From Myxococcaceae bacterium (lineage in GTDB: Bacteria > Myxococcota > Myxococcia > Myxococcales > Myxococcaceae), in contig JAIBBQ010000044.1 in assembly GCA_019694595.1 (NCBI GenBank), positions 1-37,145 of the forward strand: 37,145 bases of DNA. The letters are read 5' to 3'. The notes below the pieces were generated by a model. That model was not told the DNA's origin. It was given only the letters and a program-made list of their open reading frames with translations, and did no database searches. A program made the position numbers and the translations under genes. Positions 5,566 through 12,589 of the stretch are shown here, piece after piece (the stretch's first letter is position 1; each line of letters starts with the position of its first letter).

Positions 5566-6729
5566 TCAGTGCACGGTGCGCAGGCGGATGAAGAAGGTCG
5601 CCCCGGCGCCGGGCGTGCTCTCGACGGTGAGCGAGCCGCCGGCGTGCTCCACGATGTCCTTGCAGATCGACAGCCCGAGCCCGGTGCCCACGCCGGCGGG
5701 CCGGGTGGTGAAGAGCGGCTCGAAGATGCGGCTCAGGTTCTCGGGCGCGATGCCGGGGCCCTGGTCCTTCACCCAGGCGACCAGGCCTTCGGGGCCGCGG
5801 TCTTCCCAGCCGAGCTCGATGGTGCCGCGGCGGTTCGACTCGGCCATGGCCTGCGCCGCGTTGACCACCAGGTTGATGAGCACCTGGGTGAGCTTCACCT
5901 GGCCTGCCCGGACCATGACCTTGGAGCCGGTGACGAAGAGCCGGCCGCAGCGCTGCACCTCGATGCGGGTGAGCCGCGCGGCGAACTGGGCCACCTCGGC
6001 GAAGTCGCAGGTCTCGTCGGCGTCTTCGCCGCGGGCCTGGTTGCGCACGCTGCGCGCCAGGGTGCCGATGTGGTCGACCGCCTGGGCGATCTCCGAGACC
6101 AGCTCGGGCAGGTCGTCGAGCGCGGAGGCGACTTCCGGCGCAGGGGTGGGGCCCGCGCCCTTGCGGGCCAGCGCGAGCAGCGGCTCGAGTTCCAGCCGCA
6201 GGTGGTGCACGTTGGCGGCGAGCGCGCCCACCGGGCTCATCAGCTCGTGGGCGATGCCGGCGGACACCTGGCCGATGACCGAGAGCCGCTCCGAGGTGAG
6301 GAGCCGTTCCTGCACCGAGCGCAGCCGGTTGTGCAGCTCGAAGACGTCGAGCGCGGCGGCGATGGCGGCGCCGAGGTCCTCGCGCGACCACGGCTTGACG
6401 AAGTAGCGCTGCACCTGGCCGCGGTTGACCGCGTCGAACACCGCGGTCATGTCGGAGAAGGCGGTGACCACCATGCGCTGCGTCTCGGGCGAGAGCTCGC
6501 GGGCCTGGGCGAGCAGCTCGGAGCCCGACATGCCGGGCATGCGCTGGTCGGTGACCAGCACGCCGACCTGCCCGGGGTTGGCCTTGAGGAGCTCGATGGC
6601 CGCCGCGCCGCTGGTGCAGGTGAGCACGCGAAAGCGCTGCTTGAAGGTCAGCTCGAAGACGGTGCAGTTCGACTGCTCGTCGTCGACGTACAGCACGGCA
6701 GGTCGCTCAGAGGGCTGGGGCGCGCTCAT
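5566..6729 (-). CDS. Receiver-histidine kinase (REC-HisKA-HATPase)
   Basis: The 387-residue protein carries its receiver at the N-terminus (about 10-130): D16/D17 acidic pair, phosphoacceptor D61 in VTDQRMP, switch T89 and K112 in FVKPWS. A short helical linker leads to a transmitter with phosphoacceptor H161 in IAHELMSP, an N box (LVVNAAQAM), DQGPGI and GVGTGLGLS. The YFVKPWSRED variant groups the receiver with RpfG-like ones, as in the receiver at 1654. There are no membrane segments. The ATG at 6729 lies 23 bases inside the end of the dual-transmitter kinase gene, so translation is coupled. The N-terminal receiver suggests that the upstream kinase's phosphoryl group gates this one, making it a relay step. 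Confidence 0.9.
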   Translation of the reverse strand: MSAPQPSERPAVLYVDDEQSNCTVFELTFKQRFRVLTCTSGAAAIELLKANPGQVGVLVTDQRMPGMSGSELLAQARELSPETQRMVVTAFSDMTAVFDAVNRGQVQRYFVKPWSREDLGAAIAAALDVFELHNRLRSVQERLLTSERLSVIGQVSAGIAHELMSPVGALAANVHHLRLELEPLLALARKGAGPTPAPEVASALDDLPELVSEIAQAVDHIGTLARSVRNQARGEDADETCDFAEVAQFAARLTRIEVQRCGRLFVTGSKVMVRAGQVKLTQVLINLVVNAAQAMAESNRRGTIELGWEDRGPEGLVAWVKDQGPGIAPENLSRIFEPLFTTRPAGVGTGLGLSICKDIVEHAGGSLTVESTPGAGATFFIRLRTVH

Positions 6730-10867: not shown

Positions 10868-12589
10868 TCAGGCGGCGAAGTTCTTGATCTGCGCGATGCG
10901 GCCGTGCGCGGGGAAGGCGGACGCGGGGTCGATCTCGATGTCGAGCACCAGCGGGGTGTCGGAGTTGAGCCACTTCTCGGGAATGGCCTCGAGCTCGGCG
11001 GCGGTGCGGATGTTGAGCCCGCGCGCCCCGACCGACCGGGCGAGCGCGGCGAAGTCCACCCGGGGACTGTCCATCTCTCCCACGCGGCCGAAGATCTTCG
11101 ACATGCCCGACTCGACCATGCGCATGCGGGCGTCGTTGAAGACGGCGAAGACCACTCCGGCCTTGTTCTGCACGCAGGTGGCGAGCTCCATGCCCATCAT
11201 CTGGAAGCCCCAGTCGCCGCAGATGGACACCACCGGGCGCTCGGGGCGGGCGAGCTTGGCGCCGACCGCGGCGCCGATGCCCGAGCCCATGGAACCCAGG
11301 CCGGTGCTCACCAGGAACCCGTCGGGCTCGTCGACCTTCAGGTAGTGGAGCGCGAACAGCGTGTGCTCGCCGATGTCGCTCGTGTAGATGGTGCCCGACG
11401 GGAAGCGGGTCTGCAGCGCGGCGATGGCGCGGGCCGGCTTGAGCGGGAGCGCGTCGTCGACCAGGTTCTGCGCGTCGAGGTACCGCGGGCCGGAGAGCTC
11501 GGGCGCCCGGGTGCTGCGGCGGGAGACCCGGGAGACCAGCTCGCGCAGCACGGTGTGGGACGGGCCCACGAGCCCGAAGTCGACCTGGTAGTTCTTGCCG
11601 ATCTGCCCGGCGTCGATGTCGACCTGGATGAAGGTCTTCGACGGCTGCAGGAGCGGGCTCCAGCTGTTGGTGCCGGTCTCGCCGAGGCCGCAGCCGACCG
11701 CCATCAGGGTGTCGATGCCCTGCTCGAGGTAGCGGGAGGCGGTCGGGTGCCCGCCGAAGCCGAAGACGCCCAGCGACAGCGGGTCGCTCTCGGGGAAGAG
11801 CCCCTTGGCCCGCGGGGTGGTGGCCACCGGAATGCGCAGGGTGGCGGCGAGGGTGCCGATCCACCGCACGGCTTCGGGGTGCCGGGCGCCGGAGCCGACG
11901 AGGAGCAGCGGCCGCTCCGCGCGCTGCAGCGCCCACGCCGCGCGCTCGATGCTGTCGAGGTCGAGATCGAAGTGGGTGGACACCCGCGAGCTGCCGGACA
12001 TGGGCAGCACGCGCTCGCTCGACACGTCGAGCGGCAGCGAGAGGAAGACCGGGCCCTGGCGGCCGGCGAGCGCGGTGGCCACCGCCTTGCGCACCACCGT
12101 CGCCGCGGCGCGGGGGTTGGAGATCTCCGCGGAGAACTTGGTGACCGAGCGCACCATGCCGAGGATGTCGAGGTGGTAGCGGCTGCCTTCCTGCAGCGCG
12201 CCGCGGCCGAAGTTCTTCTTGGGCACCTCGCCGCCGATGGCGATCAGCGGCACCCCGTCGGCGTGGGCGGCCGCGAGGCCGGTGAGGGCGTTGGTGATGC
12301 CCGGCCCCGACGTCATCAAGAGCGCGGGCAGCGAGCCCCCGACCTTGGCGTGGCCCATGGCCATGAAGGCGGCCCCGGTCTCGTGGCGGGTGTTCACCAC
12401 CCGGACCCCCTGGGCGTCGAGGAGCGCGTCGTAGACCTGGCAGATGGCGCCGCCCGGGACCCCGTAGAAGGTGTCGACGCCCAGCTCCTTGAGCGTCTGC
12501 ACGATGACGTCGGCGACCCGCATCTCGGGCTGCAGCCCGGTGAGTGGCTCCTGGAGCACGGTTCGCTGGTGAATGGTGAGAGCAGTCAT
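10868..12589 (-). CDS. Thiamine-diphosphate-dependent enzyme, acetolactate synthase-like
   Basis: The 573-residue protein has the three-domain layout of the acetolactate synthase/pyruvate oxidase family: PYR domain (about 20-190), central domain (about 205-340), PP domain (about 375-560). The cofactor-activating glutamate is E70 in RHETGAA; GVPGGAI and the GRGALQE loop recall acetolactate synthase. The metal/cofactor motif is GDW...FND rather than the usual GDG...NN, a visible deviation. ATG 12589 has a GAGGCG ribosome site 5 bases before it. No regulatory ilvN/ilvH subunit and no branched-chain amino acid genes are near, which argues against housekeeping ilvB. Such enzymes decarboxylate a 2-oxoacid and transfer the resulting acyl anion, for example to make an acyloin. 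With the FabH-like gene downstream it probably makes a small molecule. Confidence 0.85.
   Translation of the reverse strand: MTALTIHQRTVLQEPLTGLQPEMRVADVIVQTLKELGVDTFYGVPGGAICQVYDALLDAQGVRVVNTRHETGAAFMAMGHAKVGGSLPALLMTSGPGITNALTGLAAAHADGVPLIAIGGEVPKKNFGRGALQEGSRYHLDILGMVRSVTKFSAEISNPRAAATVVRKAVATALAGRQGPVFLSLPLDVSSERVLPMSGSSRVSTHFDLDLDSIERAAWALQRAERPLLLVGSGARHPEAVRWIGTLAATLRIPVATTPRAKGLFPESDPLSLGVFGFGGHPTASRYLEQGIDTLMAVGCGLGETGTNSWSPLLQPSKTFIQVDIDAGQIGKNYQVDFGLVGPSHTVLRELVSRVSRRSTRAPELSGPRYLDAQNLVDDALPLKPARAIAALQTRFPSGTIYTSDIGEHTLFALHYLKVDEPDGFLVSTGLGSMGSGIGAAVGAKLARPERPVVSICGDWGFQMMGMELATCVQNKAGVVFAVFNDARMRMVESGMSKIFGRVGEMDSPRVDFAALARSVGARGLNIRTAAELEAIPEKWLNSDTPLVLDIEIDPASAFPAHGRIAQIKNFAA

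Follow-up and report, generated by a model that had tools for sequence, protein, structure and literature searches.

Do the two kinases encoded beside a pair of biosynthetic enzymes sense what these enzymes make, or do they only happen to be, or only regulate, their neighbors? This question is raised by a locus on contig JAIBBQ010000044.1 of a Myxococcaceae bacterium (assembly GCA_019694595.1, host genome of 7.28 Mb, 99% complete), of which we analyzed 37,145 bases, hereafter the window. Four genes follow one another on its minus strand: a thiamine diphosphate (ThDP)-dependent carboligase (10868-12589; 573 aa; Pfam TPP_enzyme N, M and C), a FabH-like ketoacyl synthase III (KAS III, or KAS; 9741-10841; 366 aa; Pfam ACP_syn_III and its C-terminal domain), a soluble hybrid histidine kinase (6707-9730; 1007 aa) and a histidine kinase with an N-terminal receiver (REC) domain in the layout of LvrB (REC-kinase; 5566-6729; 387 aa; Pfam Response_reg and HATPase_c). 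A gap of 26 bases separates the first two genes and one of 10 bases the next two, while the last two overlap by 23 bases. Such a run of four genes had been proposed in a preliminary description of the locus, and the coordinates agree with its reading frames and junctions, as do the Pfam matches with its gene identities. The four genes are thus real, but the description had overlooked a conserved fifth, which lies on the plus strand at 12830-13459 and encodes a 209 aa protein with a MerR-like HTH_17 domain (3.3e-12) and a Response_reg domain (1.7e-23), here called HTH_17-REC. We find that the link between enzymes and kinases is more than chance and is established by conservation, and on balance we favor the view that the cassette both produces an acylated molecule of the hydroxyketone type and responds to it, as a make-and-sense circuit. 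This is probably a system not yet described, which responds to a chemical signal of its own making.

Conservation of the cassette

Profile searches and locus mapping covered 195 genomes of the phylum (L numbers denote loci, G numbers genomes). Cassette-type ThDP enzymes were found with E <= 1e-212 in 15 genomes, the next matches dropping to 1e-157, and cassette-type KAS with E <= 1e-112, also in 15 genomes. The ThDP, KAS and hybrid kinase genes are co-located in 12 genomes, with 25-67% identity: in the window, in L040, L041, L042, L043, L045, L160, L161, L162, L165 and L168, and in L164 with L183, which are two contigs of one genome. A thirteenth genome carries the order ThDP-kinase-REC-kinase with KAS missing (L046, 5062-10793), and the 13 genomes cover seven families. 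Gene order is ThDP-KAS-kinase throughout except in L045, where KAS-kinase is followed by HTH_17-REC-ThDP-REC-kinase. The REC-kinase gene comes directly after the hybrid kinase in ten loci, in two of which (L042 and L160) the end of the contig truncates it; it is displaced in L045 (after ThDP) and L162 (about 6 kb off), and profile mapping did not find it near the L040 cassette. Full-length HTH_17-REC homologues are situated directly upstream of the ThDP gene and on the same strand in eight loci (L041, L042, L045, L160, L161, L162, L165 and L183), unlike in the window, where the two genes are divergent. L162 has a second copy adjoining the displaced REC-kinase, and in L043 the position is cut by the contig end.

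The search for this gene order in relatives, which the preliminary description had suggested as a check, therefore finds the set kept together in 12 genomes of seven families at 25-67% identity, which argues that the association is not accidental. The same description held that the link would be accidental if the enzyme pair were widely found apart from the kinases. Pairs of ThDP and KAS without adjacent kinases do exist (loci L044, L048, L049, L080, L185, L180, L181 and L182; genomes G072, G076 and G185), mostly in divergent clades, while a hybrid kinase adjoins the cassette-type ThDP gene in 13 of the 15 genomes. L048, L049, L080 and L185 cluster together in the KAS tree, and in the three of them that were aligned (L048, L049 and L080) the catalytic His of KAS is replaced by Asn. 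A scan of named genomes was dominated by unrelated ThDP enzymes; the informative case was L080 (Polyangium sp. y55x31), a pair without kinases. Monophyly of the cassette was considered and is unsupported, as the ThDP and KAS trees need about 4 changes and their deep nodes are weak.

The proposed circuit and its ligand

The reaction, product, ligand, order of phosphate transfer and output that we infer would be as follows. The ThDP enzyme and KAS III together would build a small hydroxyketone-type molecule: KAS III, itself acylated by acyl-CoA or by the acyl form of acyl carrier protein (ACP), would transfer the acyl group to the ThDP-derived intermediate to give a lipophilic acylated hydroxyketone, with side chains that would differ as the KAS variants differ. 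This product would cross the membrane or act inside the cell, and would bind to the hybrid kinase, a soluble protein, at its H-NOX-like N-terminal domain; the hybrid kinase would then pass phosphate to the REC domain of the REC-kinase in the manner of LvrA and LvrB. The REC-kinase would in turn act on a response regulator that binds DNA. HTH_17-REC, whose gene adjoins that of the ThDP enzyme, is the most likely candidate for it, and this step would close a feedback loop.

That the enzyme product may be the kinase ligand is suggested by a comparison of divergence among the 12 cassettes, for which pairwise identities were correlated (Spearman), with partial values given the first transmitter (HK1) of the hybrid kinase. 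Identity of the input domain follows identity of KAS (rho 0.66; partial 0.56, permutation 0.0015) and does not follow identity of the ThDP enzyme (rho 0.05; partial -0.14), and the value for input domain and KAS stays within 0.41-0.68 when any one genome is left out. Between the window and L040, for example, the ThDP enzymes are 67% identical, KAS 35% and the input domains 28%. A sensor whose divergence tracks KAS fits a model in which KAS would set a variable ligand and the sensor would adapt to it, by analogy with CqsA/CqsS, in which the specificities of synthase and sensor are matched (PMC3376566). There is a serious caveat to this: KAS and input domain are physically adjacent, so their co-transfer could also produce the shared divergence.

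Other observations also weigh against a make-and-sense circuit. The genomes G072 and G076 have the enzyme pair with no kinase nearby, G043 retains the ThDP enzyme and the kinases without KAS, and HTH_17-REC was not found near the cassettes L040, L046 and L168 (genomes G023, G043 and G182). In the KAS of L161 (10317-11387) and L162 (10410-11477) the active-site Cys is replaced by Ser, and no exporter dedicated to the cassettes was noted next to them.

The main rival is that the locus is a case of regulated biosynthesis, in which the kinases sense some other cue (a metabolite, a lipid or the redox state) and switch on ThDP and KAS through HTH_17-REC, the product being an antibiotic, a pigment or a lipid and not the ligand. 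We regard this as possible but rather unlikely. Pathway-specific regulators often adjoin biosynthetic genes, the enzyme pair also occurs without kinases, and the co-divergence of KAS and input domain may stem from their adjacency. However, there are two enzyme genes only, and neither exporter nor tailoring genes were noted as common to the cassettes. Two kinases and a regulator would be an unusual investment for two enzymes, and in L046, which lacks KAS, the ThDP gene has still kept the kinases beside it.

The sensor kinase

Homologues of the hybrid kinase begin (M-x-EVSCRV) at a point equivalent to its GTG start, which they thereby support. Its Pfam matches are HATPase_c and HisKA, two stretches each, and Response_reg, and together with alignment they define, on the minus strand, the first transmitter (HisKA and HATPase; residues 366-600, 7931-8635), an internal receiver (residues 645-765, 7436-7798) and a second transmitter (HisKA and HATPase; residues 766-992, 6755-7435). 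The residues His385, Asp696 and His790 are invariant in the 7 homologues aligned. N-terminal to the transmitters are an input domain (residues 1-210, 9101-9730) and a weakly supported GAF-like linker (residues 211-365, 8636-9100), for which the L042 homologue alone gives a GAF match, below the cut-off (E 0.0011). In the alignment the hybrid kinase of L046, the cassette without KAS, is also without this linker. No transmembrane segment was found in the hybrid kinase (maximal 19-residue hydropathy 1.29, and at most 1.87 in the 12 cassette kinases), so a ligand must be either intracellular or membrane-permeant.

The first approximately 365 residues match no Pfam domain at normal thresholds, which is in accordance with the unassigned N-terminal domain of the preliminary description. 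The sensing role it gave to this domain is strengthened by the occurrence of the same domain in other kinases and in LuxR-type one-component regulators. It was found in 30 of the 195 genomes, and where it occurs outside the cassettes it is joined to a DNA-binding GerE domain of the LuxR type, in one-component regulators of 294-415 aa (L173:7977-8873, L177:8842-9867, L175:9433-10314, L172:9693-10913 and L166:9569-10813) and to other kinases (L167 and L163). Such reuse indicates an input module. Thirteen members of the family were aligned, with 23-29% identity to the window. A sequence search against PDB chains gave nothing significant, and the weak match to PF12625 (Arabinose_bd / AraC N-terminal) occurs in L045 only (E 0.008, 16.7 bits against a gathering threshold of 27.6). 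The AlphaFold2 model of the domain, with a mean pLDDT of 84.5, was compared with known folds by VIA-align and matches the H-NOX domain of S. oneidensis (Z 13.3, rmsd 3.5 over 170 residues), the N-terminal domain of VirS (Z 12.7) and Bet3 (Z 9.5), a fold of a kind that binds small molecules. VirS, an AraC-family protein (PDB 8RCW), shares the predicted fold over 177 residues at only 10% identity, and its domain is fused to an AraC DNA-binding domain while that of the window is fused to a kinase. Judging by this model, the input domain is an unnamed sensory domain family with an H-NOX-like predicted fold.

With H-NOX domains as the best fold matches (Z up to 13.3), the input domain could be taken for a true H-NOX, a heme-based sensor of nitric oxide or O2, and the locus for a gas-sensing circuit. 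We consider this very improbable and rejected it, since the 13 members have neither a conserved histidine nor the YxSxR motif, which makes heme binding unlikely, and since the VirS N-terminal domain and Bet3, which have the same fold without heme, match as well.

The proposed kinase relay and its likely output

In the REC-kinase Asp61 and His161 are invariant in five homologues. For a transfer of phosphate between the two kinases a tested precedent of the same layout exists in pathogenic Leptospira, where LvrA phosphorylates LvrB in vitro (PMC5863495) and a structure of LvrB has been reported (PMC13269768). There too the genes of a soluble input-HK-REC-HK kinase and of a REC-HK kinase are adjacent, but the input domain of LvrA is a PAS domain and no enzyme genes are reported with LvrA/LvrB in these two papers. 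The window kinases score far under the NCBIfam cut-offs of the Lvr families (311.3 of 1200 bits for LvrA, 71.1 of 500 bits for LvrB).

HTH_17-REC is likely the DNA-binding output of the cassette, for which it is the natural candidate, and the 240 bases between it and the divergent ThDP gene (12590-12829) are probably the promoter region. A perfect 12-base palindrome, CTGACGCGTCAG, lies within them at window positions 12723-12734 and is not conserved in relatives. A promoter scan gave no sigma-70-type match in 12590-12829, nor was a common operator found upstream of HTH_17-REC or ThDP, as no 8-mer recurs in four of the eight regions and no palindrome is conserved.

The two enzymes

Among proteins of solved structure, BbmA (E 4.5e-100) and CsmA (PDB 8X3X and 8X3Z) come nearest to the ThDP enzyme, and their entries are titled "ThDP-dependent HKA synthase", so that among solved ThDP enzymes HKA synthases are the closest by sequence and fold, although identity is about 32%. 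The residue aligned with G484 of BbmA, which was mutated in the BbmA-G484F entry, is likewise Gly in the window enzyme. At this position acetohydroxyacid synthase (AHAS) carries the Trp of its acceptor site, and the replacement of this Trp by Gly is consistent with a larger acceptor pocket. No publication on BbmA, CsmA or HKA synthase was found in the open-access literature searched; we take HKA to mean alpha-hydroxy-beta-keto acid, and such acids decarboxylate readily to acyloins (PMC9822442).

Given its AHAS-like sequence, the enzyme could also be the acetolactate synthase of the genome, working for branched-chain amino acids in a pathway which the kinases regulate. It is indeed the best TIGR00118 (IlvB) match in the host genome, but with 372.8 bits it remains under the cut-off of 538.35. 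IlvN, IlvC and IlvD are not found in the host genome (G000) at the thresholds used. Among the 12 cassette genomes tested at these thresholds, 11 (G000, G023, G021, G005, G038, G052, G043, G182, G192, G194 and G077) have no IlvN, no IlvD and no IlvB over the cut-off, and IlvC is missing in 10, being present in G189 and G077. These 11 seem incapable of branched-chain amino acid synthesis, and acetolactate would lead nowhere in them. The sole full set among the 12 is in G189, which holds a separate true IlvB/N/C/D alongside the cassette. Together with the Gly in the pocket, the missing partners and sub-threshold scores place the ThDP enzyme outside the acetolactate pathway and leave a housekeeping role with hardly any probability.

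The KAS III of the window retains Cys149 and His288, while the catalytic Asn of FabH is replaced by Gly in the alignments. This Asn is missing in 11 of the 12 cassette KAS, which thus do not have the full Cys-His-Asn triad, and its loss suggests acyl transfer rather than the normal decarboxylation of malonyl-ACP. The preliminary description had compared the enzyme with synthases of the photopyrone or dialkylresorcinol type, a comparison which we do not retain: the NCBIfam models score far under their cut-offs (StlD/DarB 22.0 of 450 bits, DarB 15.4 of 550 bits), and the FabH Asn is lost.

Surroundings of the locus

Two further two-component clusters flank the cassette in the window, both on the plus strand: a GAF/PAS kinase and a regulator of the sigma-54 activator type (2237-5532) on one side and a hybrid kinase, a receiver and another kinase (13469-18809) on the other. 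That the enzyme pair just happens to sit in such a two-component-rich stretch is refuted, to near certainty, by the retention of the set with a homologous input domain in 12 genomes of seven families. Downstream on the minus strand (20216-35805) is a flagellar cluster, with a sigma-70-family factor, a MinD-like ATPase, an SRP54-type GTPase, FlhA, FlhB, FliR, FliM, MotA and a member of the FlgE family, which indicates that this myxobacterium-like host may be flagellated.

Comparison with known systems

The pairing of the two enzymes has parallels in biosynthesis. The xenocyloin pathway of Xenorhabdus combines an acyloin synthase of the ThDP type with acyltransferases that resemble KAS III, and we know of no kinases in its cluster. 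PMC4578411 cites a ketosynthase that has acylating activity. Another parallel is the biosynthesis of carbazoles, where the ThDP enzyme CqsB3 forms an alpha-hydroxy-beta-keto acid and the KASIII-like CqsB1 condenses it with an acyl thioester (PMC7466098), so a pair of ThDP enzyme and KAS III is chemically precedented. CqsB3/CqsB1 (NzsH/NzsJ), which were compared by description only, resemble the window pair as a ThDP acyloin enzyme with a KASIII-like partner, but a carbazole cluster depends in addition on the cyclase CqsB2/NzsI, an ACP and tailoring genes, whereas the window cassette has two kinases. None of these additional genes were noted beside the cassettes, although no targeted search for CqsB2/NzsI was made.

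As for signaling, nothing relevant on a myxobacterial system of acyloin and kinase was found in the open-access literature searched, and to our knowledge no system of this make-up has been described, there or elsewhere. We give about even chances to a broader claim, that the cassette represents a new class of signal system, widespread in one phylum, in which an HKA synthase, together with a KAS III of the Cys-His type, is joined to a soluble kinase with a heme-free H-NOX fold, an LvrAB-like relay and HTH_17-REC, and in which KAS and sensor co-diversify into signal dialects. If the circuit is real, it would be an undescribed means of chemical communication in a phylum known for multicellular and predatory behavior, with genes amenable to knock-out and expression one at a time, and it would provide a candidate role for an unnamed sensory domain which 30 of the 195 genomes encode, both in kinases and in regulators of the LuxR type.

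The closest comparison is with CqsA/CqsS of Vibrio and LqsA/LqsS/LqsR of Legionella (PMC3376566), in which the synthase gene is likewise clustered with that of a sensor kinase and, in Lqs, of a response regulator, and the signal is of the alpha-hydroxyketone (AHK) type, which is the predicted product class of the window cassette. Their synthase, however, is a pyridoxal phosphate enzyme using acyl-CoA, where the window has a ThDP enzyme with KAS III, and their sensor has six membrane helices, where the window kinase is soluble with an H-NOX-like input domain; relay and DNA-binding output differ as well. The clustering of synthase and kinase genes is therefore shared while the defining types of synthase and receptor are not, so the cassette would work like AHK quorum sensing without being a member of that family. 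If the circuit is real, signaling of the alpha-hydroxyketone type would have come about twice, with enzymes and receptors that are unrelated between the two.

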